Shown here: one piece after another, positions 688 to 19,525 of the stretch
Layout of the letters: the number at the start of each line of letters is the position of its first letter
Numbering within the stretch: the first letter of the stretch is position 1
IMG/VR virus record: IMGVR_UViG_3300032242_002619
Span: 1-20,610 of that record
Length of the DNA stretch: 20,610 bases
Source: a virus
Direction: 5' to 3' (one strand)
Position numbers and translations under genes: made by a program
Notes under the pieces: generated by a model
What the model saw: the letters and a program-made list of their open reading frames with translations, nothing else
The model's database searches: none
What the model was told of the DNA's origin: nothing

Positions 688-886
688 TTTTTGCTTTCTT
701 GAGTTTTTTAATTTCTGCCATCATTTTCTTAGCGTCTTTCTCCATCTCATCAATGATAGTTGCCATCGCTTTGATCATGGTCTGGCAGGTATCAAACCCA
801 AGCTCAAACATCTCTTGATCGGTATACACTCGCATGTTGACTTTATGTGAGTCTTTCCAGTTTTTGTATGCGGTCTTAGCGTCCAT
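674..886 (-). CDS. Small helical protein (70 aa), unknown function
   Basis: The ATG shares its A with the TAA stop of the primase-helicase gene (TAATG), so translation is probably coupled to it. The product has a long amphipathic C-terminal helix (from about TMIKAMATIIDEMEKDAKKM to the KKLKKAKSEAA tail) with coiled-coil character and a lysine-rich end. No family recognised. Its place directly after the primase gene makes a replication accessory role possible, but only by position. Confidence 0.65.
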   Translation of the reverse strand: MDAKTAYKNWKDSHKVNMRVYTDQEMFELGFDTCQTMIKAMATIIDEMEKDAKKMMAEIKKLKKAKSEAA

Positions 887-3207
887 TAAAATATACTTTC
901 ATTGTGCATTACGTTTTCATCAATGTACTTCTGTGCCTTCTCGTTTAGTTTTACACCAAGATAGACATGACTGCGACTACCCTTGGTTCTATCTAAAGCG
1001 GTTTGAATAGCATACTCCTGAGTTGCAGCAAGGAACCTGCGCTTAAATGCCAGCTCTGTGCCATATGGGATATTCTTTCTTGTAGCCCAATGTTTGTAGC
1101 AAGCAAAAACTTCGTCCTTGTTTACCTTAGCCTCGGGTTCAAATATCAATGCCTCGTCTACAAACGAACCGATTGGATTACCAAGTTCAGACATTAACTC
1201 CAATAAGTCTTTGCCGGACTGCGGCTGTAAGAAGTGACCGCCTCTGGCCAGTCTGCGCTCTAAGCCTTCCATCGCCCAGTTAAAGATGCCGGATAACTCT
1301 TTGGATAACTTGTGCGATAGGTCGGTATCTTCTTTGTCATAAAATGATTTAGTCATCTTGAGCACAATCATACGACCCGTGAGCGCGTTGGAGTTCTCAG
1401 TTAGTTGTAGTGCTTCGTTGCTATATATAACAATACGAGTAGGCAGGTAACCATTCCAAGCTTCTTTGTTCTTTCGGTTGACCGTAATAGTGTCTCCACC
1501 AACAATACGGAGAAGCTGAGAAACCACAGCACTGCGGTTACGCTCAGGAGCGCGCGCATCAGTAAAGGAAGCCAAAAGTTTACCAAGCCAAGGTTGTAGT
1601 CCAAAGGAATCACAAAGTTCTCCTAGTTCTGGTGCGACTGTATTGTGTTGTCCTAATAGGTCAACTAGCACCTTGTTAATCGTTCCTTTGCCAGAACGAC
1701 GTGGGCCAATCAGGTTAAAGAACTTCTGCTGACGAGTATCTCCGCTGATGATATACCCGAACATTTCTTGCAATGTGTCTTTGGATTCTTGATCTTCTGG
1801 CCATACAGAGTTTAAAAAGTTGTGCCATGTTGGGCACTGTGCCTGCTCATCATAATCAAACGGCAATGAGTTCTGGGTAAAGAAACCCAATGAGTGCGGT
1901 ATCAATACGCGGTCTTCTAAATGAAAGATGCCGTTAGCCAAACTGATCAGTTTAGAAGCATCGGGTTTATTGAACCGATACTCTTCTAACCAAATCGGTG
2001 GGCGCGTGTTTTGATGATTCTGTAAGTGCACGATAGACTTAACGGCATCAATCGCGGCAGAGACGCTGGCTGGCGCAGGGTTAAATGGAGCTAGTTCACC
2101 CTTCTTGGCAGTCTTCTTGCACCGGTCTAAAAACTTATACAGAGCTGAGCGAATAGTCGCTTCTTCAATGATCTCGTAGTGCGTTTTAGAATGCACGAAA
2201 AAGTCATCGGCATAATGTACTAAGCTGTAACCTTCTTCCGTTGTGTAGGAGTTGTCGAGAAAGGTACGGGCGTGGTTCATCGCACCTTGATCAAGAATGA
2301 TCTCACCGCGATCTAATGCTTCTTGCCTTTTCTGTTGGTTGATCTTAAAGATCAGTGAGCGCAGAGTCGCGCCCGATCCTTTAAACGTCTGCCACTTTTT
2401 ATCGCACTGGTGCGGTGTGTAGTTAGCAACCGACCCATCACCATACGACCATCTATCCCACAGCTCTAGCGCCTCATAGTCGCCTCCAAACTGGTGGTGT
2501 AATGCCATACCGACTGAGAGCCAATCTGTGTAGCCACAGTGTGGATCCATGTTCTCCAAAATCTCTGTCTCGACTCTGTGGATGTCATAGTTTGGAACGG
2601 GCGGTGTGTAGTCTGCAAACGCGTCACCGGTTCTTCTAATCTCGCGCTCAGGAATGACGGCAGTCAAGTCTTGCTCGCTCTCAGGGATACTGCCTAAGAT
2701 AATGTGCCCAGTTACTGTGAAGTATCTGCCTTTGGGGTAGAACTCCAAACCCTTGTCATGGTCAACGTGGGCAGCTTGCATGAGGGCGCGGGTAAAAATC
2801 TTGACCCCTGTACCTGATGGGCTGATTTCCATATAGCCCTGAACCGAGTTGGCAATATGCTGCAGTGCAGCATCAGTGAAAACGCCCTCAAGATGGTCAT
2901 AACAATCATCAAGGTCGATTCCGACTAGGTTATCGTCGTCATTGAAAACAAACCCCACTCCATCAAAACGGTGGTTGTTGGTTTCATAGGCAGCTTGGAC
3001 TGTCAAAAAGTCTGACCAAGTTGTCTCGTCTGTTGAGGAAGCTGGTTGCCCGTTTGCCTGTGTGGGGAGTTTTGACCAGCGCTTAGTGTTTTCATCACCA
3101 ATCTCTACAAATCGCCATAATACCCACCTAGGAGTGCGTTTTAGCTGCATTGGGATGTTGTCAAAGAGAACTGGGAGGGAGTTTGGTTTGGTATTTATCA
3201 TCTTCAT
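886..3207 (-). CDS. PrimPol / D5-type primase-helicase (SF3)
   Basis: A 773-residue replication protein likely to prime and unwind phage DNA. The N-terminal third fits a primase-polymerase domain: GFVFNDDDNLVGIDLDDC (85-102, with the metal-binding D98 and D100), SPSGTGVKIF (129-138) and GLEFYPKGRYFTVTG (153-167). A PriCT_2-like segment follows (about 210-290, with DPHCGYTDWLSVGMALHH). A D5_N-like stretch covers about 320-450, then an SF3 helicase with Walker A GPRRSGKGT (501-509). The architecture is that of P4-alpha and D5-like primases. ATG 3207 or ATG 3201 could be the start; neither has a Shine-Dalgarno. A promoter-like TTTGCATTAGTATTA lies just upstream, so the message may be nearly leaderless. 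Iterons at 3282-3497 lie upstream of it. Confidence 0.93.
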   Translation of the reverse strand: MKMINTKPNSLPVLFDNIPMQLKRTPRWVLWRFVEIGDENTKRWSKLPTQANGQPASSTDETTWSDFLTVQAAYETNNHRFDGVGFVFNDDDNLVGIDLDDCYDHLEGVFTDAALQHIANSVQGYMEISPSGTGVKIFTRALMQAAHVDHDKGLEFYPKGRYFTVTGHIILGSIPESEQDLTAVIPEREIRRTGDAFADYTPPVPNYDIHRVETEILENMDPHCGYTDWLSVGMALHHQFGGDYEALELWDRWSYGDGSVANYTPHQCDKKWQTFKGSGATLRSLIFKINQQKRQEALDRGEIILDQGAMNHARTFLDNSYTTEEGYSLVHYADDFFVHSKTHYEIIEEATIRSALYKFLDRCKKTAKKGELAPFNPAPASVSAAIDAVKSIVHLQNHQNTRPPIWLEEYRFNKPDASKLISLANGIFHLEDRVLIPHSLGFFTQNSLPFDYDEQAQCPTWHNFLNSVWPEDQESKDTLQEMFGYIISGDTRQQKFFNLIGPRRSGKGTINKVLVDLLGQHNTVAPELGELCDSFGLQPWLGKLLASFTDARAPERNRSAVVSQLLRIVGGDTITVNRKNKEAWNGYLPTRIVIYSNEALQLTENSNALTGRMIVLKMTKSFYDKEDTDLSHKLSKELSGIFNWAMEGLERRLARGGHFLQPQSGKDLLELMSELGNPIGSFVDEALIFEPEAKVNKDEVFACYKHWATRKNIPYGTELAFKRRFLAATQEYAIQTALDRTKGSRSHVYLGVKLNEKAQKYIDENVMHNESIF

Positions 3208-3211
3208 TCAG

Positions 3212-3226
3212 TAATACTAATGCAAA
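3212..3226 (-). promoter_or_regulatory. Promoter-like half motif before the primase gene
   Basis: On the minus strand this reads TTTGCATTAGTATTA, identical over 15 bases to the downstream half of the late promoter motif before the portal gene (15684-15698). The upstream half (TTGGGRCGGAA) is absent at the expected distance; GATATGTATAT is there instead. The motif ends five bases before the primase ATG. It may be a promoter of the same sigma that depends only on a -10-like element. Confidence 0.45.
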
Positions 3227-3321: not shown

Positions 3322-3376
3322 TATAGATGATAATCATTCTTATTTGAGTACCAAGAATCAATGACTTACAAACAAA

Positions 3377-3497
3377 TTGTCATAGTAGTCATAGTAGTCA
3401 CCCTCTAAACGTATTATTTTTATTATTTTTAAAAAAGAAAATAAATTTATACGGAGTAAAGTGATTTAGACCCTGACTACTGTGACTACTGTGACAA
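3377..3497. repeat. 120-bp iteron element, copy 1 (possible origin)
   Basis: Left arm is three adjoining 9-bp units: TTGTCATAG, TAGTCATAG, TAGTCACCC. A 67-base core, almost all A and T, follows. The right arm is the inverted form of TTGTCACAG, TAGTCACAG, TAGTCAGGG. The arms match at 23 of 27 positions as an inverted repeat, and the whole is repeated in the same orientation at 12781-12900. The right arm overlaps the last codons and TAG stop of the glycosyltransferase-like gene. Iterons around an AT-rich core suggest a replication origin or a large operator; a bidirectional terminator hairpin is the alternative. Confidence 0.7.
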
Positions 3498-4103
3498 AAT
3501 CTCCTTGGCTTTGTTCACAAACCGTTCTACGTTAACATTTTCCCTTACTTCAAACAGGTGATAGGTGGTGTCATCGTAGTTTGTACCGATGCCATATGAC
3601 ATAGGGCGGTTTGGAAGGTTCCATTTGGCTACCTCAAAATCTTTGACCGGAAGTAAGTGGACGGGAAAACCCCGATAGTTCCAGCTGTCCGTTAGCATTT
3701 GAGCCACATCGCCATCGTAAGTGGCTTTGCATGATGGTTTACCCACAGCTCGCCAAATCCGTCTTGGGATACAGATAAAGGAAGGTGCGGCAAACAGCCT
3801 AGAAGGGTCAAGGTGGTTCGATGCCTGCTCGTTGCCTACTAGGCTACCACCAGCTGCCATAGTGATACAGTGATTGATCTTTTGGGCATTTAACGGAATA
3901 CAGTCAATATCAAAAAATACCAGTACATCAAGATCATCTCGAGAGTTGAGAACCCAATCCATCCACTCGCCATGATCTAGTCCGTGGATCTTGTGCTGAA
4001 CCATTGGAATGCCAAAGTGATCCATGACTTTCTTTTGGTAATCTACCACTCTAGGATCAATGTTATCCCAGTATAGTGAAAATATGCCGGCTCTTAGTTC
4101 CAT
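3486..4103 (-). CDS. Glycosyltransferase-like protein (GT-A fold, DxD)
   Basis: The 205-residue product carries a DxD-type motif in VLVFFDIDCIPLN (about residues 79-91), preceded by a hydrophobic strand, as in GT-A glycosyltransferases that bind a nucleotide sugar through a metal. It opens MELRAGIFSLYWDNIDPRVV. ATG 4103 is chosen over an in-frame start at 4151 because it forms a TAATG overlap with the preceding stop and has AGGATA just upstream. It is last of a three-gene glycosyltransferase group, and its final codons lie in a 120-bp iteron element. Acceptor unknown: modified phage DNA, virion protein or host surface sugar are all possible. The family is less certain than for its neighbours. 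Confidence 0.65.
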   Translation of the reverse strand: MELRAGIFSLYWDNIDPRVVDYQKKVMDHFGIPMVQHKIHGLDHGEWMDWVLNSRDDLDVLVFFDIDCIPLNAQKINHCITMAAGGSLVGNEQASNHLDPSRLFAAPSFICIPRRIWRAVGKPSCKATYDGDVAQMLTDSWNYRGFPVHLLPVKDFEVAKWNLPNRPMSYGIGTNYDDTTYHLFEVRENVNVERFVNKAKEILSQ

Positions 4104-4297
4104 TATCCTGCCACCTCGTAGCCAAGTTGACGAACCATCTTGTATGACCATTTACGAAAGAACTCACGATGCTCTGAGTCTTGTGGATCATTCTCGTCCC
4201 AGACCGATTGGACAACAAACGACCCGGCATGATCATAAAACTCAATATGGGTTAGGTTGCCATCTTTGTCATATACATCTGTTGGTATTACATTCAT
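4103..4297 (-). CDS. Small hypothetical protein (64 aa)
   Basis: The product begins MNVIPTDVYDKDGNLTHIEF and ends in a helix (REFFRKWSYKMVRQLGYEVA). ATG 4297 overlaps the stop of the upstream glycosyltransferase-like gene, and GGAG lies nine bases before it. The stop overlaps the next ATG. Translation of all three is therefore probably coupled. No family recognised; its place between two glycosyltransferase-like genes suggests a partner role, but this is position only. Confidence 0.65.
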   Translation of the reverse strand: MNVIPTDVYDKDGNLTHIEFYDHAGSFVVQSVWDENDPQDSEHREFFRKWSYKMVRQLGYEVAG

Positions 4298-5061
4298 TGT
4301 CTATCACTCCTTGATAAGCCGCCGCTGAAAATATGTGTACCAGTATGGGTAAGTTGTGCCCATGGTGCTGCATGAATTTTAAACCCGTTTGCGCGGGCTA
4401 GGTCACAGAAATGATAGTCTTCTGACATATAACGATTATCAGCCGGTGATATAGATGTATCAAACATATTGGCAATCAAAGTACCAACATCTTTTGGATT
4501 TACTACGGTAAACATATCGTTGGAGTAATGGGGAACGACCTCTTTAATTTTCGCTATGACATCGCGCTTAATTAACATAAACCCCGTACCGCCTTTCTCA
4601 ATCTCAATAGGCTGATCAATCCGTCCTGTGGCATCTTTCTTGTCAATCGTGTTGACTACGAATGAGCCTGTGTAGTTATGCAGCTCTTCCGCTGCAACAC
4701 CACGATTAACGGCTGCGTGAACTTCATGCCAGTTAATTTCTTTCTTTGGATAAATACCACAAATAACATCCACATCCGCTCTAACCATCTGCACAATGTC
4801 GTATGGGCGCCAACCAATGTCCGCATCAATAAACATCAGATGGGTGCAGTCACTAGCCAAGAAGTCGTGTGCCATACGGTTACGGGCACGGGTAATCAAA
4901 CTCTCATTTAACATCATGGAATAATTCATATCAATTCCATTTTGATTGAGAGCTGGTGCCGTTGCACATAAGTTAATAGCGTATGTACCCGTACACATTC
5001 CGCCATACATCGGTGTTGCAATAAATAGTCTTGGTTTCACAGACTTCTGTTTTTTGTCCAT
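4294..5061 (-). CDS. Glycosyltransferase, GT-A fold, phage type
   Basis: The 255-residue product has the arrangement of phage GT-A glycosyltransferases: an N-terminal strand with RLFIATPMYGGM (about 11-22), LITRARNRMAHDFLAS (about 55-70), and the metal-binding DxD in THLMFIDADIGW (about 73-84). A later MSEDYHFCDLARANGFKI segment resembles the catalytic-acid region of GT2-like enzymes. The start is preceded by AAGGA nine bases upstream and lies inside the end of the 230-residue GT2-like gene. Phages use such enzymes to sugar-coat DNA, virion proteins or the host surface; nothing here identifies the acceptor. Confidence 0.8.
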   Translation of the reverse strand: MDKKQKSVKPRLFIATPMYGGMCTGTYAINLCATAPALNQNGIDMNYSMMLNESLITRARNRMAHDFLASDCTHLMFIDADIGWRPYDIVQMVRADVDVICGIYPKKEINWHEVHAAVNRGVAAEELHNYTGSFVVNTIDKKDATGRIDQPIEIEKGGTGFMLIKRDVIAKIKEVVPHYSNDMFTVVNPKDVGTLIANMFDTSISPADNRYMSEDYHFCDLARANGFKIHAAPWAQLTHTGTHIFSGGLSRSDRQ

Positions 5062-5729
5062 GGATAATTTCCTTGATAGTGTTGTAATGTTGCTTTGTTT
5101 CCTTGGCGGTGCATCTCTTCATGGTGCGGTCTAACGCGATAATTGATTGTATGCTCGCCATTACAATCAAACTCTGGTAAAGCTTTTTCCATCGCACCAT
5201 AAAATAGGCGATCCATATAAAACGAATCACCAAAGAACTGGTAAGAATGGCGCATCAAATATTTGCGTTTAAAGCAATAGCAATTGGTATCTACAAAATG
5301 GTGATGCGGTGCAAATACTGAAGGCCACTTGCCTAAGCTTTCACAATTATCTGCAATTACAAAATCACCATCTTGCCCAACAATATTGCGTAAACTGTAT
5401 GCCCATTGTAAATCTTTTTGTTCAATAAAGTTAACCAATTTTTCTACATGATCGGGCTCGAACCAATTATCTTCGTCAAGAAACAAAATGTAATCAGCGT
5501 CCGTTAACATTGGAAAAGCAGCATAAATACGGTGCCCATTGTAGCCATCATGTCCAGTATTCTCATTAAGCAAAATGGTGCGTCCGTTACCATATACTTT
5601 AAATTCGTTGTCAACACGCCCATCACAAACAATTAAATGTTCTGTCGGCATAGTTTGATCGCGCACACTGTCAATCGCCTGTTGCACATGTTTAGTGCCA
5701 ATTGTTGGGGTTATAACTTGGATACGCAT
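5037..5729 (-). CDS. Family 2-like glycosyltransferase
   Basis: The 230-residue product begins with the classic GT2 opening, RIQVITPTIGTKHVQQAIDS, followed by HLIVCDG and, after about 80 residues, the DxD-type motif in YILFLDEDNWFEPDHV. It should transfer a sugar from a nucleotide donor. The ATG overlaps the stop of the upstream gene (TAATG), with GGGGGAATA before it. It overlaps the next glycosyltransferase by 25 bases. It is the first of three such genes read in the same direction, which suggests a small glycan pathway, though a shared acceptor is inference. Confidence 0.85.
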   Translation of the reverse strand: MRIQVITPTIGTKHVQQAIDSVRDQTMPTEHLIVCDGRVDNEFKVYGNGRTILLNENTGHDGYNGHRIYAAFPMLTDADYILFLDEDNWFEPDHVEKLVNFIEQKDLQWAYSLRNIVGQDGDFVIADNCESLGKWPSVFAPHHHFVDTNCYCFKRKYLMRHSYQFFGDSFYMDRLFYGAMEKALPEFDCNGEHTINYRVRPHHEEMHRQGNKATLQHYQGNYPWTKNRSL

Positions 5730-6094
5730 TATTCCCCCAACTTATCTGCGCTATCTTGTAATCGGGTCTTGCGTTCTTCCCAATTATCTTGCACCCCATA
5801 ATCGCCGCGGCTTGCTCTCATACGCTCATAAAATCTAAACTCAGGTTCTACTTTAAGCCATTCTTGAAATGCTTCTTTATATTCCAAGTACTCATCATTG
5901 ACAACAAATAGCGGGTGATTCATGCCAGCAATATCTACGCAAGCAAGATAGTCAGAAGAAGGTATCCATTTTGGTTTTGAAATTGAATTGGATTGAGTTT
6001 TAGCCCCCCTACCAATTCCCATTTTATTTCGGGCTCGAATAAAACGATCGTAAGCTCTCTGCTGTTCGTCATTTAATTGTAATAATTTAGTCAT
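5729..6094 (-). CDS. Hypothetical protein (121 aa) between sigma and GT genes
   Basis: The product begins MTKLLQLNDEQQRAYDRFIR, which looks helical, and ends in charged helices (EERKTRLQDSADKLGE). I see no helix-turn-helix and nothing like the missing sigma region 4, although the gene directly follows the sigma gene and overlaps it by eight bases. AGAGGATCAAG precedes the ATG. I do not recognise the family. Confidence 0.7.
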   Translation of the reverse strand: MTKLLQLNDEQQRAYDRFIRARNKMGIGRGAKTQSNSISKPKWIPSSDYLACVDIAGMNHPLFVVNDEYLEYKEAFQEWLKVEPEFRFYERMRASRGDYGVQDNWEERKTRLQDSADKLGE

Positions 6095-10757: not shown

Positions 10758-11501
10758 TTAAGCCGCCACAATTGGAATAAAGCGGCTTTTTAATGATCCA
10801 TGGACGATGATTACTGGATCCGCGCGCTTGCTATCTATTCCGCCGTCGCATGCGCCGCATTCGCCGCACAATTTGCGCTTTCCGCCTTCCGCGCTTGCTG
10901 GGCAAATAAATTCGCCGGCTTCAATCGCCTCATTTTCGCCGCGTACCCTGAAAGTACGAAAGCCGGCCGCTTTGGCCGCCGCGCGCTCTAATGCATTATC
11001 GGCGCTTGCCATGCATAAGGCCATAATATCGGCGCCGGCCTTGCCGCTTTGCCATTGGTGCGAATATCCGGTATGGCCTTGCGCTTGATCAATAAGCGCT
11101 TGCCATATATAAGCCGGTACGGCGGCCGGATCGCCATAAGTACCTAAGCGCACCATGCGGCCGGCGCTGGCATTGGCCGCGGCCTGAATGCTGGCGGGAT
11201 AATTGCCCTTTAAATAGGCTTTATATACGGCGTTAGCGCCTTGCCCGATATTTACATAACAATCGCGCAATTCGCCATGATATCGCCGGTGTTTACAATC
11301 GCCGCATATGGCGTAATCGGCGCCGCTCTTGGCGCTATCTAATGGCGTCATGCCGTTATCGGCCAAAATGTAGGTTTGAACCATATTGCCGGTTTTTACA
11401 TTGGTTGATTTAATAATGGCAATGGCCACAATTGGCGCGCCGTTAAGCAATGAGGCGCCGCGATAAATGATAAAGCCGCTTGGTTTTTTGTTTGTTTGCA
11501 T
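10758..11501 (-). CDS. Conserved phage protein with CxxC motifs (247 aa)
   Basis: The product has C66-GD-C69, C81 in DCYVNIGQGAN, VRLGTYGDPAAVPAYIW (117-133), TGYSHQW (144-150), FRTFRVRGENE (181-191), C200 in CPASAEGG and a triple CxxCxxC at 212-218, then DPVIIVHG. Seven cysteines in pairs suggest zinc or an iron-sulfur cluster. I recognise this order of motifs as a family widespread in phages with no established function (a DUF, possibly DUF7227; number from memory). The start follows a shared 20-bp leader; a longer start at 11519 would read through that leader and is rejected. It is the largest gene in the block. Confidence 0.82.
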   Translation of the reverse strand: MQTNKKPSGFIIYRGASLLNGAPIVAIAIIKSTNVKTGNMVQTYILADNGMTPLDSAKSGADYAICGDCKHRRYHGELRDCYVNIGQGANAVYKAYLKGNYPASIQAAANASAGRMVRLGTYGDPAAVPAYIWQALIDQAQGHTGYSHQWQSGKAGADIMALCMASADNALERAAAKAAGFRTFRVRGENEAIEAGEFICPASAEGGKRKLCGECGACDGGIDSKRADPVIIVHGSLKSRFIPIVAA

Positions 11502-11518
11502 GATGATAATTCCTCTCA
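11499..11518 (-). promoter_or_regulatory. Start-associated leader repeat, copy 1
   Basis: The minus strand reads TGAGAGGAATTATCATCATG, the last three bases being the start codon of the 247-codon gene. It is identical to three other copies. GAGAGG is the likely Shine-Dalgarno, unusually far (10 bases) from the ATG. Confidence 0.85.
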
Positions 11519-11707
11519 TTAAATGGTAAATTCTGGCGCTTTATGCGCAATGTCAAAACCTAGATTTTTGATGATCGCTAAATCTACGCGGCCTAGGGTT
11601 TTCTTGCCGATAAGATTACAAAATTTTGCGGCCGTATCATTGGCCGGATAAATGAGCTCATTGCCGTAAACGGTTTTGACTTCAATAAGTACGGTATTGG
11701 TTAGCAT
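11519..11707 (-). CDS. Small hypothetical protein (62 aa)
   Basis: The product reads MLTNTVLIEVKTVYGNELIY then PANDTAAKFCNLIGKKTLGR, a strand-turn-strand opening followed by a helix. The start at 11707 is set by the leader repeat directly upstream; reading from 11725 would only translate that leader. Its stop directly precedes the next copy of the leader. Similar small proteins with a KFCNLIGKKTL-like middle appear familiar from phages, but no role is known. Confidence 0.68.
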   Translation of the reverse strand: MLTNTVLIEVKTVYGNELIYPANDTAAKFCNLIGKKTLGRVDLAIIKNLGFDIAHKAPEFTI

Positions 11708-11724
11708 GATGATAATTCCTCTCA
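11705..11724 (-). promoter_or_regulatory. Start-associated leader repeat, copy 2
   Basis: Identical 20-base leader ending in the ATG of the 62-codon gene. Its first three bases, TGA, are also the stop codon of the 30-codon gene upstream, so the repeat doubles as a gene junction. Confidence 0.85.
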
Positions 11725-11814
11725 AATATTAAAATGGATCAAGGCGGCCACAATGGCATTGCCTAGGATGATAGATAAAACAATTGCAATTCCTAAATGG
11801 ATCAATTCGCGCAT
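11722..11814 (-). CDS. Tiny single-helix membrane peptide (30 aa)
   Basis: The frame reads MRELIHLGIAIVLSIILGNA followed by IVAALIHFNI: a short charged start and one hydrophobic helix of about 20 residues. It begins with the same 20-base leader as its neighbours and stops in the first bases of the next leader, so it is probably translated despite its size. A small inner-membrane effector or regulator is plausible; holin function is not supported. Confidence 0.62.
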   Translation of the reverse strand: MRELIHLGIAIVLSIILGNAIVAALIHFNI

Positions 11815-11831
11815 GATGATAATTCCTCTCA
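11812..11831 (-). promoter_or_regulatory. Start-associated leader repeat, copy 3
   Basis: Identical 20-base leader ending in the ATG of the 30-codon membrane peptide gene. Its presence is the main reason to start that gene here and not at 11904. Confidence 0.85.
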
Positions 11832-11863
11832 AAAATTGGCGGCGCTGCGGCCGCCTTGGTTTA

Positions 11864-12091
11864 CTATACTTTAGCGCCGCGCTCATGCTGCGCGCATTCG
11901 CCACAATCGCATTCGATTACATCGCGCCGCGCTGCCGCTCTTACTTCGGCCAATGTATCAAACCCGCGGCAATGTACTAAGTCATCGGCAAACCGATAAC
12001 CGAAGGGCAGCCATAAAAAGTATTCATTGCCGCCATTCCAGTTTGGCGTAATATCTAGATCGCGCTTAATATCAAGCTTATATTTTGTCAT
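11864..12091 (-). CDS. Small hypothetical protein (75 aa), first gene of leftward arm
   Basis: The product begins MTKYKLDIKRDLDITPNWNG, has an aromatic stretch (NEYFLWLPFGYRFADD) and a C-terminal cysteine cluster (ECDCGECAQHE, C61, C63, C66, H69) that could bind zinc. The start is set by the leader repeat. It is the first gene leftward of the control region, with a promoter candidate 75-105 bases upstream. Not recognised. Confidence 0.68.
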   Translation of the reverse strand: MTKYKLDIKRDLDITPNWNGGNEYFLWLPFGYRFADDLVHCRGFDTLAEVRAAARRDVIECDCGECAQHERGAKV

Positions 12092-12108
12092 GATGATAAT
12101 TCCTCTCA
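12089..12108 (-). promoter_or_regulatory. Start-associated leader repeat, copy 4
   Basis: Identical 20-base leader ending in the ATG of the 75-codon gene. This copy borders the gene-free control region, so it is not just a by-product of gene overlap. Confidence 0.85.
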
Positions 12109-12166
12109 TTTAATATGGCCGCTTAATTGCTGCCATATACACAATATAACGGCGCGCTATATGGTT

Positions 12167-12730: not shown

Positions 12731-12781
12731 CGCTTGTAAGTCGTTGATAGTTCGTTGAGGGTGCGCTTGTAAGTCCTTGAT
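12731..12781 (+). repeat. 18-bp direct repeat before iteron element
   Basis: CGCTTGTAAGTCGTTGAT (12731-12748) recurs with one change at 12764-12781, 33 bases apart. A lone CCCTGACTA unit like those of the adjacent element lies at 12706-12714. Confidence 0.6.
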
Positions 12782-12900
12782 TGTCACAGTAGTCATAGTA
12801 GTCACCCTTTATTCTTATTATTTTATTATTTTAAAAAAGAAAAAGATTTATCTTGGGGTAAAAGTGAAATAGACCCTGACTACTGTGACTACCCTGACAA
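12781..12900. repeat. 120-bp iteron element, copy 2 (possible origin)
   Basis: Left units are TTGTCACAG, TAGTCATAG and TAGTCACCC; a 66-base AT-rich core follows; the right units are inverted TTGTCAGGG, TAGTCACAG and TAGTCAGGG. Order, spacing and most core bases match the element at 3377-3497 in the same orientation. It lies just upstream of the first rightward promoter, 9.4 kb from copy 1. An origin, a regulator-binding site or a bidirectional terminator could each explain it. Confidence 0.7.
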
Positions 12901-12920: not shown

Positions 12921-12953
12921 TTGGGACGGAAACAGCTATAATTTTGCATTAGT
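12921..12953 (+). promoter_or_regulatory. Phage-type promoter motif, copy 1
   Basis: TTGGGACGGAA, 11 bases, then TTTGCATTAGT, with the ATG of the first rightward gene six bases later. Two more copies have the same 22-base spacing between half starts. No Shine-Dalgarno lies between motif and ATG, so a leaderless or near-leaderless message is likely. Confidence 0.7.
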
Positions 12954-12959
12954 TAGATT

Positions 12960-13265
12960 ATGAGTAAATACGTATACCAAATCCAAGGTGCTCTAGAAAG
13001 CGAAGACGGCGTTCTTCGTGGCTTAAGGGTTATGGTTTGCGACCTCTATAACTTTGATTCTGTCGATGTGCCTATTGCTGTATTGGATAAAGAAACCCGC
13101 GCGTACCTCAAATACCGCCTAATGGTGACTGAAGCCATCAATATCCAGCAATTGCCCATCAGAATCCAAAACAACATACGAGCGCCGTTAGGGCGCTGGC
13201 TGGACCAATGGGTCCTTGATAATTTCCATGGCGATTCTAGCGAACGAAAAAGTATTAACCCTTGA
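12960..13265 (+). CDS. Hypothetical protein (101 aa), first gene of rightward arm
   Basis: The product begins MSKYVYQIQGALESEDGVLR and includes LRVMVCDLYNFDSVDVPIAV then helical sequence. Its place two genes before terL is where a small terminase subunit often lies, but I see no helix-turn-helix or other small-terminase feature and do not assign it. The start directly follows a phage-type promoter motif with no Shine-Dalgarno. Its end overlaps the intein-like gene by 38 bases in another frame. Confidence 0.72.
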   Translation: MSKYVYQIQGALESEDGVLRGLRVMVCDLYNFDSVDVPIAVLDKETRAYLKYRLMVTEAINIQQLPIRIQNNIRAPLGRWLDQWVLDNFHGDSSERKSINP

Positions 13266-14220
13266 TTATTGGAAGTATGCGCATACTTTGTCCGAAGGCG
13301 ATTACGTCTTTAACCGTGAAGGCAAGCTAGTACGCATCAAACTCATCCAAAAATACCGAGCCAATGAGTGCTATCAGGTTGTCTTTAACGACCACCTCAC
13401 TGTCTCTGGTGACAAAAACCTACACTTCCTGCTAGAAAACCCCAAGTACCGCAAACGCCTAAACGAATACAAAGGCAAGCGCCAGTTTTTGCGCCCGTTA
13501 AAAGATACTAAGCTAGAAGACTTACTGACTGCCAGCCTTAAAAACAATCATAACCGTTTGGCTTTCTCGGTTCCGTCTACAAAACCATTGGAACTACCGC
13601 ACCAAACGCTACCTGTCCCACCGTTTTTGTTTGGGTTTTGGTTTTTTAGTCGCCGCTCTACCAAAAAGTTAGCCGCGCCTCGTGGCAAATGGGGAGAAGT
13701 CGAACGCCAGTTCAAAGAACATGGATATCAGATTACCGTTGGCAAGAAGATTAACACCGGAGAGCGGGAGTTTTCGGTTTATCCATCAATTGAATCGCAA
13801 CTTATGCCAGATATTCCTTGGCAAATCCCAAACAACTATCTTTTGGGATCACATGAACAGCGCCTTGAGCTATTACGCGGAATCTTACACGCAAAAGCTA
13901 GGCAGTATTCCATAAAACGTGACCGGTTTCGGTTTACATCACAGCACCAACGCATTTTTAATCAAGTGCAGTTCCTTGTGGAATCATTAGGACACAAAAC
14001 AACTTGCACATTTGACGAAACCAAAGAATATTACACCGTATCATTCAAATCTAGGTTAAAATTACTAGATGAACAAGTATCTCCGCCACTAAAAGTACAT
14101 AACGATAGGCGATATATAAAACATATTGAACCCATGGGCGAACAGTTGTGCGTCCACATAGAAACTGAAGGAGCTGACAATAGCTTCTTGGTAGGAGCCG
14201 GTTTTATTTCATGTCTTTAA
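13228..14220 (+). CDS. Free-standing degenerate intein-like (Hint / LAGLIDADG) protein
   Basis: The 330-residue product aligns by eye with inteins of phage terminases. It opens with a Hint-like start (ANEKVLTLDYWKYAHTLSEG then DYVFNREGKLVRI), keeps a block-B-like SGDKNLHF, has a LAGLIDADG-block-like PPFLFGFWFF and a second NNYLLGSHEQRLELLRGILH, and ends in an intein-C-like LCVHIETEGADNSFLVGAGF. The key residues are gone: no Cys1, no acidic residue in either LAGLIDADG block, no terminal His-Asn (it ends FISCL). It overlaps terL by 10 bases. I use ATG 13228; a TTG at 13216 would add four residues. Splicing and cutting both look lost, yet the frame is intact. Confidence 0.72.
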   Translation: MAILANEKVLTLDYWKYAHTLSEGDYVFNREGKLVRIKLIQKYRANECYQVVFNDHLTVSGDKNLHFLLENPKYRKRLNEYKGKRQFLRPLKDTKLEDLLTASLKNNHNRLAFSVPSTKPLELPHQTLPVPPFLFGFWFFSRRSTKKLAAPRGKWGEVERQFKEHGYQITVGKKINTGEREFSVYPSIESQLMPDIPWQIPNNYLLGSHEQRLELLRGILHAKARQYSIKRDRFRFTSQHQRIFNQVQFLVESLGHKTTCTFDETKEYYTVSFKSRLKLLDEQVSPPLKVHNDRRYIKHIEPMGEQLCVHIETEGADNSFLVGAGFISCL

Positions 14221-15656
14221 CACCCAAACAAGAACTTACGCTAAAGAAGTTTGCGGAATCGCATAAGCATTGGCCTAAACCACAGCTTGATGCGGCTATC
14301 TGGCAGGTTAGATGGCACTTGCAAGCTTTAGATCACCAACGAGAACCAGAAGATGGAGAGTACGATACGTTTCTTATGCTTGCAGGCCGCGGCTCTGGTA
14401 AGACGCACACTGCTAGTCATTGGATTGGTATTCGCGCTTGGAAGTACAACCAGACCCGCTGGCTTGTCACCGCCCCAACCTCTAATGATATCCGTGCAAC
14501 TTGCTTCGAAGGAGACTCCGGTCTTCTTAATATCATACCCAAGAGCCTTATCCGAGATTACAACAAGTCCCTCTTTGAGATTACCCTCACAAACGGATCT
14601 CTTATTCAAGGTATCCCCGCCTCAGAGCCGGAACGATATCGTGGTAAACAATTCCATGGAGCTTGGTTTGACGAGTTGTGCGCCTTCGAGTATCTTGACG
14701 ATGCATACGATGGAGTACAGTTCACCCTCCGTCTGCGCGATCCTCGCATTGAGCGCGTCCAGCAAATCATTACCACAACCCCCAAACCAAAAGAACTTAT
14801 TGTCGACCTTGCCGAAGGAAAAATCGGCGGTGACGTCTACATGGTCAACGCGTCGTCATACGACAATCGGGCGAACCTCTCCGAGACATTTTTCAAACAG
14901 CTAGAAACTTACGACGGCACTGACATTGGTCGCCAAGAGATTTATGGTGAGATCCTTGACCCAGAACAAGCCGGTATCATCAAACGCAAACAGTTTCGTA
15001 TGTGGCCGGCAAACAAGCCAACCCCAGACCTTGAGTATGTTATTGCGTCATACGACCCAGCCACTTCAGAAAAAACTACCAACGACCCCACGGCTTGTAC
15101 AGTATGGGGTGTATTTGATACTCCTGATATTGGTGTAGGTATTATCCTCTTAGATGCTTGGGACGGCCACCTTGCCTACCCAGAGTTGCGCCGTAAAGTT
15201 ATCGACGATTACAAAGAGGTGGTCTATGGTGCAGACAATGACTTTGCCAAAGGTCGTAAAGCGGACATGGTGCTGATGGAAGATAAGTCTGCTGGTATTT
15301 CATTGATCCAAGAGTTGCAAGGATCAGGCATTGATGTGCGTGGTTACAACCCCGGTCGTGCCGATAAGGTGCAGCGTATCAACATTGTTGCGCCGCTAAT
15401 TGCCAAAGGTAAAGTCTGGATCCCAGAAGATGCTAAGATCAAAGGCGACTTTGCCGATTGGGCTAAACGGTTTCTCAGGCAAGTGTGTTCGTTCCCAGAA
15501 GGCGGTGGGCATGATGACTATGTAGACTCTTTATCACAAGCCTTGCGTGTTTTGCGCGATACTGGCTGGATTCAGCTCGACCCGTTACCTGCCCGCGATT
15601 ATTCGTATGCCGATGATGATTTCCGCAAAAGAACAGCAAATCCGTATGCCCAATAA
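14211..15656 (+). CDS. terL: Terminase large subunit (packaging ATPase and nuclease)
   Basis: The 481-residue protein drives DNA into the procapsid and cuts it. ATPase: Walker A AGRGSGKT (58-65), TAPTSNDIR (88-94), Walker B HGAWFDEL (149-156; D154, E155), and IITTTPKP (186-193) as coupling motif. RNase H-like nuclease: ASYDPA with D282, MEDKSAG with D358, and GGGHDDYVDSLSQAL with D435, D436 and D439. Length is normal and no intein interrupts it. The ATG overlaps the end of the intein-like gene; the nearest AGGAG is 13 bases upstream, so translation is probably coupled. Confidence 0.95.
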   Translation: MSLTPKQELTLKKFAESHKHWPKPQLDAAIWQVRWHLQALDHQREPEDGEYDTFLMLAGRGSGKTHTASHWIGIRAWKYNQTRWLVTAPTSNDIRATCFEGDSGLLNIIPKSLIRDYNKSLFEITLTNGSLIQGIPASEPERYRGKQFHGAWFDELCAFEYLDDAYDGVQFTLRLRDPRIERVQQIITTTPKPKELIVDLAEGKIGGDVYMVNASSYDNRANLSETFFKQLETYDGTDIGRQEIYGEILDPEQAGIIKRKQFRMWPANKPTPDLEYVIASYDPATSEKTTNDPTACTVWGVFDTPDIGVGIILLDAWDGHLAYPELRRKVIDDYKEVVYGADNDFAKGRKADMVLMEDKSAGISLIQELQGSGIDVRGYNPGRADKVQRINIVAPLIAKGKVWIPEDAKIKGDFADWAKRFLRQVCSFPEGGGHDDYVDSLSQALRVLRDTGWIQLDPLPARDYSYADDDFRKRTANPYAQ

Positions 15657-15661
15657 TGCGG

Positions 15662-15695
15662 TTGGGGCGGAAACCCCCGTTTATTTGCATTAGTA
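15662..15695 (+). promoter_or_regulatory. Phage-type promoter motif, copy 2
   Basis: TTGGGGCGGAA, 11 bases, TTTGCATTAGTA, in the gap between terL and the portal gene. The GGGG and CCCC around CGGAAA could also pair as a hairpin, so a terminator for terL messages may overlap it. The portal ATG is 38 bases downstream, leaving a real leader here. Confidence 0.7.
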
Positions 15696-15732
15696 TTAAT
15701 AGGAACAATTTCCACCAAATTTTATAGAACTT

Positions 15733-18609
15733 ATGGCAAATCCACAGTTACCCATCTCGCAAGGCGGCAATCTTCCCGGTTTAAACCGTGACGATGATAT
15801 TAAAGATGACGCCGAGCAAGAAGCGCAAAAAGAGCAGTTCGAGCAAGCACTGGGTTTAGATTCAGACGAAGTAGACCAAGAAGTTATCGAATTAGATGAC
15901 GGGTCGGTTGTCGTTAACTTTGTGCCAAAAGAAGGCCCACAAAAGAATCCTGAGTTCTATGCCAACTTGGCAGAAGAGCTTGATGAAGACGTCTTGCTCA
16001 AACTGGCATATGAGTATCTTGACTACATTGACGTAGACAAAGAAGCCCGTAAGCAACGCGACAAACAATACGAAGAAGGTTTGCGTCGTACTGGTCTAGG
16101 TAAAGACGCGCCCGGTGGTGCTGTGTTTGACGGCGCATCTAAAGTGGTGCACCCTGTCATGGCAGAAGCTTGCGTTGACTTTGCGGCATCATCATCCAAA
16201 GAATTGCTACCCCCTGAAGGTTTGGTCAAGACCAACATTAAGGGTAATGCTGACTTATTAAAACAAAAAACTGCAGAACGTAAAGCGGAGTTCCTTAACT
16301 GGCAACTTACGGAGCAAGTCCAAGAATACCGTGACGAGATGGAGCAGTTGCTCACTCAGTTACCCCTTGGTGGTTCACAGTTTCTTAAATGGCGTTTTGA
16401 TGAAGAACAAATGCGTCCTACTTGCGAGTGGGTGCCAATTGACAACATCATCCTGCCATACTCCTCTACCAATTTCTACACATCGCAACGCGTTACCGAA
16501 GTACAAGATATCACTGAAGACATTTATCTTCAGCGTATCGAGCAAGGTATTTACAAAGACATCGAGTCATTCACGACATCTGATGCACCGTTAACTGATC
16601 AGACTCGTTCTGAGGAAGCCAATAACAAAATCGAAGGCAAAGAAATGCCATCGAAAAATATTGACAACCTACGCAGAATTTACGAAATCACTTGCTTTAT
16701 ACGTTTAGAGTCAGATCCCGAAACAGAAGGACGTCGCGCACCTTACATCCTCACTATTGATGAGACAACAAGCGAAGTATTATCACTGCGCAGAAACTGG
16801 GAATGCAATGACGAAAAGCTCACGAAATTGGATTGGTATGTTGAATTCAAATTCATTCCTTGGCGTGGTGCTTACGCTATTGGTCTCCCCCATCTTATTG
16901 GCGGTTTGTCTGCTGCTCTCACTGGCGCTCTACGCGCTTTGCTTGACGCTGCTCATATCAACAACTCTCAGACATTACTTAAACTCAAAACTGGACGCGT
17001 GTCTGGACAGTCTGATAGGATTGAACCCACCCAAGTAGTAGAGGTAGAATCTGGTCCGGGTGTTGATGACATCCGTAAGATTGCAATGGCTATGCCGTTT
17101 AATCCACCATCTTCTGTTCTCATGGAATTGTTGGGTTGGTTAACGACTGCAGCTAAAGGCGTTGTCTCTACTTCTGAAGAAAAGATTGGCGAAGCTAACA
17201 ACAACATGCCTGTTGGTACAGCCCAAGCGTTGATTGAACAGGGCGCCAAAGTATTCTCTAGCATTCACGCACGTTTACATCGTAGCCAAGCTAAGTCTCT
17301 TGCTATCGTATCTCGTATCAACCATTGGTACTTGTCTGAGATGGACAACGAGTCTGGTACTGAGATTGAGGTTCGTGACTTTGCCGAAAACAATGACGTA
17401 CGTCCAGTATCTGATCCAAACATTTTCTCTGAGACACAACGTTTAGCTCAGACACAAGCAATCTTACAGTTAGCCACACAAGCTAACCAAATGCAACCCG
17501 GCACGTTTGATATGAGAGCGGTTTACAACCGCATTTTGCAGCAAATGAAAGTGCCAGAGATTGAAGAGATTATGCCTAATCCGCAAGGCGCGGCAGAATC
17601 CAACCCAGCGTTGGAAAACGTGGCGATGACTATGGGTCGTCCAGCTGCAGCCTACCCAGATCAAGATCATATTGCACATATCAAGGTACACCTTGAGTAT
17701 GCAAACAATCCTGCCTATGGCGGCAATCCTGTTATTGGACCTGCTTTTGCTCCCCATGCCCTTGATCATATCAAGCAGCATTTAACCTTACACTACTTAC
17801 AGTCTATGCGCTCTTATGTGGCGCAGGCATCTGGTGGACGCGATGTATTAGAGTTGCACACCGAGAAGCCATTAGACCTTGAGGCACAACAAGCGTTGGC
17901 ACTGGCATCACAATTGGTAGACGAAGACTCCAAGCGCATGATGACGCCGTATGTACAGCAGATTGCACAGTTGGCACAAAAAGTATCACAGATGCAACAG
18001 AACCAACAGCAAAATCAACTCATGTCTGATCCTACTGCTGCGGCAATTGTTAAGACTCAAATGGCTGAAACTCAGCGTAAAACACAAGAGTTCCAAAACA
18101 AGATGCAACTTGATGTACAAAAAGCGCAACAAGAGTATCAAGTTAAAGTTGCTGAGTTACAACAACAAGTTCAAGAGTTACAAGCTAAGTACAGCACTCA
18201 AACCAATATCGACAATCAGCGTAATGCTACCGATATCGCGATGGCAAACATTAACAACGCAGCCAAAGAGCGTATTGCAATGATTACCGCTGGTGCTCAG
18301 ATGGATCAGATGCAAGCTCAGTTAGAAGCTGAACAAGACGCATCTGCTAGAGAAGCCATCATCGCAGCCGAACAAGATATTCGCACTCATGGTTTAGCTG
18401 TTCAGCAACAAGCGTTTGAGCAACAAGCCGCTCAAGTCCAACAAGCCATTGAAGCACAAAACAAAATGGCTCAAGGACAACAACAACTGCAGCAAGACAT
18501 GCAGCAGCATCAACAACAATTAGCGCAAGCTGATCAGCAGCACCAGCAACAATTGCAACAAGCACAGCAGCAACAAGAAGTACAACAACCACCCACTGAG
18601 GAACAATAA
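15733..18609 (+). CDS. Portal protein, large P22-like with Q-rich tail
   Basis: The 958-residue protein should form the head vertex ring through which DNA passes. The core (about 80-640) carries portal-like features: WQLTEQVQEYRDEMEQLLTQ (about 189-208), LGGSQFLKWRFDEE, CEWVPIDNIILPYSSTNFYT, and a long helix-rich clip/stem region with GVVSTSEEKIGEANNNMPVG. From about 740 it becomes helical and then nearly all glutamine (QQQHQQQLQQAQQQQ), comparable to the helical barrel of P22 portal but far longer. The N-terminus has VIELDDGSVVVNF (51-63), echoed in the scaffold-like protein. No Shine-Dalgarno is obvious; the stop forms TAATG with the next gene. Confidence 0.9.
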   Translation: MANPQLPISQGGNLPGLNRDDDIKDDAEQEAQKEQFEQALGLDSDEVDQEVIELDDGSVVVNFVPKEGPQKNPEFYANLAEELDEDVLLKLAYEYLDYIDVDKEARKQRDKQYEEGLRRTGLGKDAPGGAVFDGASKVVHPVMAEACVDFAASSSKELLPPEGLVKTNIKGNADLLKQKTAERKAEFLNWQLTEQVQEYRDEMEQLLTQLPLGGSQFLKWRFDEEQMRPTCEWVPIDNIILPYSSTNFYTSQRVTEVQDITEDIYLQRIEQGIYKDIESFTTSDAPLTDQTRSEEANNKIEGKEMPSKNIDNLRRIYEITCFIRLESDPETEGRRAPYILTIDETTSEVLSLRRNWECNDEKLTKLDWYVEFKFIPWRGAYAIGLPHLIGGLSAALTGALRALLDAAHINNSQTLLKLKTGRVSGQSDRIEPTQVVEVESGPGVDDIRKIAMAMPFNPPSSVLMELLGWLTTAAKGVVSTSEEKIGEANNNMPVGTAQALIEQGAKVFSSIHARLHRSQAKSLAIVSRINHWYLSEMDNESGTEIEVRDFAENNDVRPVSDPNIFSETQRLAQTQAILQLATQANQMQPGTFDMRAVYNRILQQMKVPEIEEIMPNPQGAAESNPALENVAMTMGRPAAAYPDQDHIAHIKVHLEYANNPAYGGNPVIGPAFAPHALDHIKQHLTLHYLQSMRSYVAQASGGRDVLELHTEKPLDLEAQQALALASQLVDEDSKRMMTPYVQQIAQLAQKVSQMQQNQQQNQLMSDPTAAAIVKTQMAETQRKTQEFQNKMQLDVQKAQQEYQVKVAELQQQVQELQAKYSTQTNIDNQRNATDIAMANINNAAKERIAMITAGAQMDQMQAQLEAEQDASAREAIIAAEQDIRTHGLAVQQQAFEQQAAQVQQAIEAQNKMAQGQQQLQQDMQQHQQQLAQADQQHQQQLQQAQQQQEVQQPPTEEQ

Positions 18610-18824
18610 TGGCAAAAGATGAATTAGGTTTTCGTCAAACCTACAAACAAATGGGCAAGCAAAGCTCTGGCGGCGGTCCTGATGCTAAGTTAGATCAAGG
18701 CGACTCAGGTTCACATCGTGACAATAATTGGAAGATTGGCGCAGCGCAAGCTAAGATGGCTAAACCTTCTAAAGTTGGCCCAGATAAGAACCTAAACGAA
18801 ATCGGCGGCGGAAACTTTTATTAA
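18609..18824 (+). CDS. Small glycine- and lysine-rich protein (71 aa)
   Basis: The product reads MAKDELGFRQTYKQMGKQSS then GGGPDAKLDQGDSGSHRDNN: low-complexity, polar, probably disordered. The ATG overlaps the portal stop, so it is likely made with portal and may be a small head protein. Not recognised. Confidence 0.7.
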   Translation: MAKDELGFRQTYKQMGKQSSGGGPDAKLDQGDSGSHRDNNWKIGAAQAKMAKPSKVGPDKNLNEIGGGNFY

Positions 18825-18827
18825 TAT

Positions 18828-18860
18828 TTGGGGCGGAATGCTCCAAATGTTTGCATTAGT
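18828..18860 (+). promoter_or_regulatory. Phage-type promoter motif, copy 3
   Basis: TTGGGGCGGAA, 11 bases, TTTGCATTAGT, with an ATG six bases later, the same distance as in copy 1. TTTGGGG and CTCCAAA can pair around it with one G-T, so a hairpin is possible here too. Confidence 0.7.
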
Positions 18861-18866
18861 AAGAAT

Positions 18867-19061
18867 ATGAAGGACATACTAAGCGAAATTCTGGATAGAA
18901 TTAAAATCGCAGAAAAAGAAATGACGGAGGCAATAGCTTCCGCCGTTAATGTACATAGCTTTGATGCTTATCAAAGACTTGTAGGTAAACGAGAGGGTTT
19001 GTCCGATGCTCTTTCGATTATTGATAACATACTATCAGAGGACGACGAAGAAGATCTGTAA
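18867..19061 (+). CDS. Small helical protein (64 aa)
   Basis: The product begins MKDILSEILDRIKIAEKEMT and has HSFDAYQRLVGKREGLSDAL then a D/E-rich tail. The YQRLVGKREGL middle matches a recurring pattern in small phage head-module proteins, from memory. ATG 18867 is chosen because the motif upstream is a promoter; an in-frame TTG at 18828 would translate that motif. No Shine-Dalgarno, so probably leaderless. Confidence 0.72.
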   Translation: MKDILSEILDRIKIAEKEMTEAIASAVNVHSFDAYQRLVGKREGLSDALSIIDNILSEDDEEDL

Positions 19062-19081: not shown

Positions 19082-19525
19082 ATGGCGGCATTTGATTTAA
19101 ACCAAAAAGACGAACCAGATTTACGCACGGAATTAGAGTGTTTTCCTGAAGTAGATCCCGGAGTCGATGTAGCTGGAGATCGAGTATTGGTGCAGTTACG
19201 CCGAGAAAAGACCACTAGCAAAGGCGGAATCATCCTAGTTGATGAAACCAAACAAACCTTACGTTTTAACGAGACTGTAGCTAAAGTAATCCAGATTGGA
19301 CCACTTGCATATAAGTCACCCGATACCTTAGAGCCTTGGATTGAAGGCCCATGGTGCAAAGTTGGTGATTTGGTAAGAACAATCAAATACGGCGGTGATC
19401 GTTTTGTTATTAATCCTAATGATGATGGCGCCCCAGTGGTGTTTATTACTCTTCAGGCACGTGAAATTATCTCTCGTATTCGTAGTTTTGAGTATGCGCA
19501 GAAGATGAAAGCGTTTGTAGATTAA
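19082..19525 (+). CDS. GroES-like co-chaperonin (Cpn10 family)
   Basis: The 147-residue product has the Cpn10 core: VAGDRVLVQLRREKTTSKGG (30-49), IILVDETKQT in place of the mobile-loop/strand region, TVAKVIQIGPLA (64-75), and KVGDLVRTIKYGGDRF (92-107). A phage version would pair with host GroEL to fold capsid or other late proteins, as gp31 does in T4. It is longer than bacterial GroES (about 97) by an N-terminal arm and a C-terminal helix. AGGAGG lies seven bases before the ATG, the best ribosome-binding site in the late arm. Confidence 0.8.
   Translation: MAAFDLNQKDEPDLRTELECFPEVDPGVDVAGDRVLVQLRREKTTSKGGIILVDETKQTLRFNETVAKVIQIGPLAYKSPDTLEPWIEGPWCKVGDLVRTIKYGGDRFVINPNDDGAPVVFITLQAREIISRIRSFEYAQKMKAFVD

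Follow-up and report, generated by a model that had tools for sequence, protein, structure and literature searches.

A bipartite motif and its very probable role as late-gene promoter in a group of uncultured freshwater phages

Gene layout of the window and conservation of the motif

The window, the whole stretch of 20,610 nucleotides that was analysed, comes from IMG/VR as a 20.6-kb fragment, whose early arm, on the minus strand, carries a primase/helicase, a sigma factor and small ORFs and whose late arm, on the plus strand, carries a terminase, a portal protein, GroES and others, the labels "early" and "late" being taken from gene content. The genes relevant to this analysis were as follows.

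886-3207, minus strand: primase/helicase gene behind a candidate middle promoter
4103-4297, minus strand: 64-aa sigma-operon protein with a predicted beta-beta-beta-alpha fold
5729-6094, minus strand: 121-aa sigma-operon partner protein, overlapping the sigma stop codon
6087-6662, minus strand: phage sigma factor with regions 1.2, 2 and 3 and without region 4; proposed reader of the -10 block
12960-13265, plus strand: conserved unit-1 gene of 101 aa, located before the terminase region
14211-15656, plus strand: terminase large subunit
15733-18609, plus strand: portal protein
18867-19061, plus strand: conserved 64-aa gene, predicted to be transcribed from promoter 3, with GroES next

Other features of the two arms were also recorded. 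The GroES-like co-chaperonin (19082-19525, plus strand) is phage-encoded and lies within the late operon. A 334-aa ORF (13216-14220, plus strand) precedes the terminase and overlaps it in a different frame; its PHROG matches fall in the N-terminal portion of terminase models (phrog_15, E 1e-10), and it looks like a Hint/endonuclease-type insert or a split terminase part and is kept in 13 relatives. On the minus strand, ATGAGAGGAATTATCATCATG occurs four times (11488-12114) before small early ORFs, giving repeated MRGIIIM starts, and is likely a repeated ribosome-binding leader. Three glycosyltransferase-like ORFs (3486-5729, minus strand) lie between the 121-aa and 64-aa sigma-operon genes, which are adjacent in other lineages. 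A direct repeat of ~120 nt with TGACTACTGTGACTAC iterons (3376-3497 and 12780-12900, 79-80% identity) adjoins the primase promoter and the unit-1 promoter, and may represent an origin or control region.

The initial annotation had described a two-part motif at three late units and had proposed that it was a promoter. The motif, TTGGGRCGGAA-N11-TTTGCATTAGT, was present in three exact plus-strand copies, each preceding a late-arm ORF: that at 12960 (101 aa, terminase downstream), the portal gene at 15733, and that at 18867 (64 aa, GroES downstream). No fourth copy was found in the window at up to three mismatches, and 0/100 dinucleotide shuffles yielded a match.

12921-12953, plus strand: predicted late promoter 1; -35 block 12921-12931, -10 block 12943-12953, putative +1 at 12960 (A of the start codon)
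15662-15694, plus strand: predicted late promoter 2; -35 block 15662-15672, -10 block 15684-15694, putative +1 at 15701
18828-18860, plus strand: predicted late promoter 3; -35 block 18828-18838, -10 block 18850-18860, putative +1 at 18867 (A of the start codon)

Among 80 IMG/VR contigs with terminases 85-100% identical, the motif matched 144 times on the plus strand vs 4 times on the minus strand, and the reversed-sequence control gave 12 matches, 0 of them at spacing 11. The 11-base spacer was found at 134/148 sites in relatives, bearing out the fixed spacing between the halves that had been noted in the window. A matrix built from 87 distinct sites resolves three blocks, TRGGGCGGAW, TTTGCATTAGTA and TA[TG]GA, separated by mostly unconstrained stretches of 11 and 4 bases; the third block begins 5 bases 3' of TTTGCATTAGT, and the conserved signal is longer than first described. 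In a scan of the window together with 15 relatives, 16 clade contigs in all, each contig had 3-8 sites, with 0 sites in the reversed controls, and neither MW202545 nor Caulobacter phage RW, two named relatives that share homologous capsid genes, had the motif or such a sigma factor. Pattern scans of viral_contigs and genome_contigs, with at least 118 loci checked, found clade proteins encoded at 117/118 loci among the matches listed; the sole exception (L235, genome_contigs) shared no clade gene and was a single match, estimated to be within chance for that collection. Among the matches listed, the motif is essentially restricted to this phage clade. With the portal, sigma and region-4-like proteins as queries, the GenBank phage collection yielded no named phage belonging to the clade. 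Beta-proteobacterial/Burkholderiales MAG bins include clade contigs, which is weak evidence of the host.

Across dozens of relatives the motif stood before the same late genes, on the same strand and nearly always with the 11-base spacer. This conservation of position, strand and spacing, together with the restriction to one clade, strongly supports the proposed sigma-type promoter role and suggests that the motif is very probably the late-gene promoter of this uncultured freshwater phage group.

Geometry of the predicted promoter and the phage sigma factor

The motif looks like a sigma-type promoter, with GGGCGG at -35 and an extended -10 element, TGCATTAGT. With C27 of the motif set at -12, GGGCGG spans -35 to -30 and the spacer is 17 bp; in an alternative register, in which TG is the canonical extended -10, all positions shift by one base. 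The motif had been described as unlike host sigma-70 boxes; this is refined here, in that the -10 half is an extended -10 element of divergent sequence, and hence the architecture is that of the sigma70 family.

Transcription had been predicted to start 5-8 bases after TTTGCATTAGT, and the relatives agreed with this prediction, as motif position 40, 7 bases 3' of TTTGCATTAGT, was A in 98% of sites and fits +1. This A was the first base of ATG in 33/33 unit-1 sites, a class assigned by the downstream 97-113-aa protein, and at 13 sites preceding the 64-aa protein (unit-3 type). Because the putative +1 coincides with the A of ATG in units 1 and 3, their mRNAs are predicted to be leaderless, which we regard as likely. 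At portal-type sites, the predicted RNA begins with AGGA and has a leader, of ~32 nt at promoter 2. Leaderless late mRNAs with ATG fixed to the start site would, if true, represent a mode of translation uncommon among phage late operons.

The 191-aa sigma factor contains Pfam regions 1.2, 2 and 3, all above cut-off, and its profile matched primary sigma chains in the PDB. It ends near the region 3.2 position in all homologues, with no region 4 in the same polypeptide; region-4 hits in the scan were sub-threshold, nearly all of them in sigma frames at the region-3 helix-turn-helix. In nearly all genomes the sites agreed with one another in their -10 variant, which had G, A or T at position 32 or CGT for TGC. 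Such uniformity inside a genome suggests a reader that acts in trans and changes together with the variant.

For covariation analysis, 63 distinct sigma sequences were each paired with the motif class of their own contig. The best sigma column for TGC vs CGT was N124 (N in 57/57, K in 6/6), the sole column fixed both ways, which aligns with H455 of E. coli sigma70 in our own alignment of conserved segments, the source of all E. coli sigma70 numbering given here. R109, aligned with T440, is replaced by E in CGT genomes, whose motif has T in place of C at position 27, and the best column for position 32 was T98, aligned with T429. Known promoter-reading residues of sigma70 include H455, E458, Q437 and T440; H455 and E458 contact the extended -10, and T440 is a suppressor site of -12 mutations (PMC2613000). 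Few independent evolutionary events lie behind the covariation, since the CGT genomes make up a single long-branched clade and the sigmas without T98 all belong to one supported group, within which a few changes occur. Its strength lies in the agreement of the best columns with residues that could be anticipated, which holds for N124 at least. Position 32 was a mixture of A and T in L206 and L208, which have A98, and was mixed in L224 as well, which is compatible with relaxed reading. Contrary evidence comes from contig G016: its sigma has 95% identity to that of the window, and one TGC site lies where the contig resembles the window, whereas the sites elsewhere are CGT. Its similarity (L357, L358) switches at ~14 kb from window-like to G004-like genes, as does its -10 class, which indicates a recombinant phage or a chimeric assembly.

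The single -10 variant per genome, and its covariation with the DNA-reading residues of the phage sigma, support the sigma-type reader that had been proposed, and we consider it highly probable that the motif is a promoter read by a sigma factor. The 63 natural sigma/promoter pairs allow direct residue-base predictions of sigma specificity; for example, a sigma with K124/E109 would be expected to prefer CGTATTAGT. Promoter calling also becomes possible in many uncultured phage contigs of the clade.

Early-strand sites, a region-4-like protein and overlapping hairpins

A second class of sites was found on the early strand, in which the genome's own -10 variant is kept and GGGCGG is absent. The window has one such site.

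3215-3226, minus strand: -10 block TTTGCATTAGTA without GGGCGG, directly before the primase/helicase gene; candidate middle promoter

Many early-strand sites before the primase and a 172-aa gene had a palindrome, ATTTCACAWTGTGAAAT, centred at -41/-42, and 35/39 of the palindromes found near early-strand sites were so placed; we take this to be the place of a class II activator. Carriers of ATTTCACAWTGTGAAAT among the relatives include G007 (27108), L094 and L176, and the window lineage is without it. Other lineages, that of the window included, have a TATATAACTAAAAGATAT-like stretch or nothing recognisable in its place. Since the -10 was kept while the upstream elements varied, all classes share the -10 half and the upstream element is class-specific. 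The early-strand sites, before the primase and, in relatives, before the region-4-like gene, could act as middle promoters that are active before a second protein exists.

That second protein may be one of ~103 aa, encoded behind an early-strand site without GGGCGG in 49 contigs. It matched Pfam Sigma70_r4_2 weakly (sub-threshold in 14/34 members, best 0.0023) and the PHROG sigma factor family weakly (best 9e-5), and in NCBIfam mostly sigma models led, all of them weakly. The family profile gave no region-4 match against PDB sequences, with weak phosphoenolpyruvate carboxykinase and ribosomal hits, and tblastn of GenBank phage records found no detectable relative. A segment around LSYxDIxVTEKYWRYHFxKGIEFIKKEL is highly conserved, as is GGGCGG. 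In most contigs sigma is followed by this gene at a distance of 6-11 kb, which puts it beyond the end of the window contig. It was present in 41/48 contigs reaching 9.5 kb past sigma, and a whole-contig search of the remaining seven gave a match in 6/7; the match in G021 was cut by the contig end, and one match sits in the mosaic contig G016. We infer that the 103-aa protein is a detached sigma region 4 and that the system is a split sigma used in two steps, and a role of this protein as the -35 reader is favored, with some reserve. The claim of a sigma-type reader stood, with the refinement that this reader seems to consist of two proteins.

Two products of the sigma operon were also considered and set aside. 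The 121-aa protein was rejected as the -35 reader, as it is missing in the G005 clade, where GGGCGG is kept; its model was poor (pLDDT 71), with no significant fold match. The 64-aa sigma-operon protein had a confident predicted fold (pLDDT 97), for which Foldseek returned no significant match. On re-examination phage Xp10 P7, which binds RNA polymerase, scored Z 4.7-4.8, below the level of common arrangements.

The strongest alternative is that the region-4-less sigma reads the -10 alone and that GGGCGG is the site of an unrelated phage or host activator, as the -41 palindrome appears to be at early-strand sites. The swapping of upstream elements at those sites with the -10 kept would fit this arrangement, as would the weakness of the region-4 match and the precedent of phiEco32 gp36, which has no region 4 and uses a single-element promoter (PMC8948821). 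However, GGGCGG lies exactly where a region 4 would read, the spacer being fixed at 17 bp, and its distribution is shared by a region-4-like protein that has an invariant helix; we therefore consider an unrelated activator rather unlikely. Reading by a single-subunit phage RNA polymerase or by the host's own sigma70 is very improbable. T7-type polymerases occur in many phages and the -10 half is somewhat like an extended -10, but the variants follow the phage sigma and no host factor, and the motif is missing from relatives without this sigma. PF00940, the model for a T7-type RNA polymerase, was absent in 15 relatives, whose contigs may be incomplete, while the T7 control was positive.

In many copies of the motif, GGGCGG pairs with spacer sequence to form a stem, and the T run within the -10 block comes next (e.g., GGGGCGGAATCGTCCGCCTTTTTTG in G002). 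Two such structures were found in the window.

15663-15679, plus strand: terminator-like hairpin overlapping the promoter 2 -35 block and spacer; no stronger than spacer shuffles (p 0.44)
18826-18848, plus strand: terminator-like hairpin (stem of 9 bp) that overlaps promoter 3; more stable, at -11.3 kcal/mol, than 200 spacer shuffles

Mean folding was -5.2 kcal/mol where a same-strand gene ended just upstream (80 sites) vs -2.9 kcal/mol where no upstream same-strand gene end was detected (74 sites; p 5e-5), and it was weakest at unit 1 (-2.3 kcal/mol), where no same-strand upstream gene end was detected. After related contigs were collapsed the difference stayed, at a modest level (p 0.012; paired, 12/21 clusters, p 0.035), and a nested terminator as a universal feature was rejected, being weaker after this clustering. 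The TAG of block 1 was the upstream gene's stop codon in 38/154 sites. Block 1 held 8.8 bits of information at unit 1 vs 14.1, while block 2 was equal at 17 bits, so that a share of the constraint on block 1 may come from termination or from looser reading. At many sites the hairpin of the -35 block and spacer might act as a terminator for the upstream gene, for which the balance of evidence is slightly favorable. That the element is only an RNA-level signal between genes, a terminator or processing site, and no promoter is hardly credible despite the many hairpins followed by a T run and the often embedded upstream stop codon, because unit-1 sites, which lack an upstream gene and usually a hairpin, keep block 2 fully and block 1 partly, the spacer is free in sequence but fixed in length, and the -10 half recurs at the primase without block 1.

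We return to the split sigma as the preferred reading. Host core RNA polymerase with the phage split sigma would transcribe from the three late promoters, the 191-aa protein (regions 1.2-2-3) reading the extended -10 block TGCATTAGT and the later-made, separate ~103-aa region-4-like protein reading GGGCGG at -35. The first half alone would serve the middle promoters, and paired with the region-4 half it would serve the late ones. As a whole, the combination of late promoters, split sigma, leaderless starts, middle promoters and overlapping hairpins is probably the best explanation of the sequence evidence. A split sigma could also explain how the phage times its genes. In such a two-step timer, for and against which we see the case as evenly poised, the -10-reading half alone would fire middle promoters, including that of its own -35-reading partner, and the complete pair would fire late promoters in which ~45 bases combine a stop codon, a terminator, the -35 and -10, the start site and ATG, giving leaderless late mRNAs.

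Comparison with known systems

In the open-licence literature, no described equivalent was found of a region-4-less sigma combined with a -35 element and a detached region-4-like protein, and the nearest systems share parts of this arrangement. In E. coli sigma70 extended -10 promoters, as in the clade, TG lies just upstream of the -10 and is read by regions 2.4/3.0, with a spacing of ~17 (PMC2613000, PMC4593229); the clade differs from E. coli sigma70 promoters in its -10, CATTAG/ATTAGT with clade-specific variants, and in its -35, GGGCGG. In Bacillus subtilis, SigO-RsoA places Sigma2 and sigma4 functions on two cooperating proteins, similar to our proposal (PMC8103513, PMC10141391), but that pair is chromosomal, non-phage and of a separate family (PMC8103513).

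Among phages, phiEco32 gp36 and 7-11 gp47 are sigma factors that redirect host polymerase to middle and late promoters, as proposed for the clade (PMC8948821). The single-element promoters of phiEco32 gp36 differ from the bipartite late sites of the clade (PMC8948821), and promoters of that kind would fit the clade's early-strand sites without GGGCGG. The 7-11 gp47 has its own region 4 and bipartite promoters, whereas the clade has bipartite promoters and a sigma without region 4 (PMC8948821).

The proposed division of labor resembles that of T4 gp55 and gp33, in which a small phage sigma without region 4 works with another phage protein that takes that region's place; the two are called a split sigma, and their genes are far apart, as are those of the candidate pair here (PMC2988020). 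The region-4-less sigma is matched in the clade, and the separate region-4 substitute is a candidate. T4 differs in that gp33 reads no DNA and its late promoters have no -35 element, whereas the clade's late sites conserve GGGCGG (PMC2988020). A review of T4 late transcription asked why the halves of a split sigma always have separate, separately regulated genes (PMC2988020). The clade would offer a testable answer, namely that the two halves have different jobs in time.
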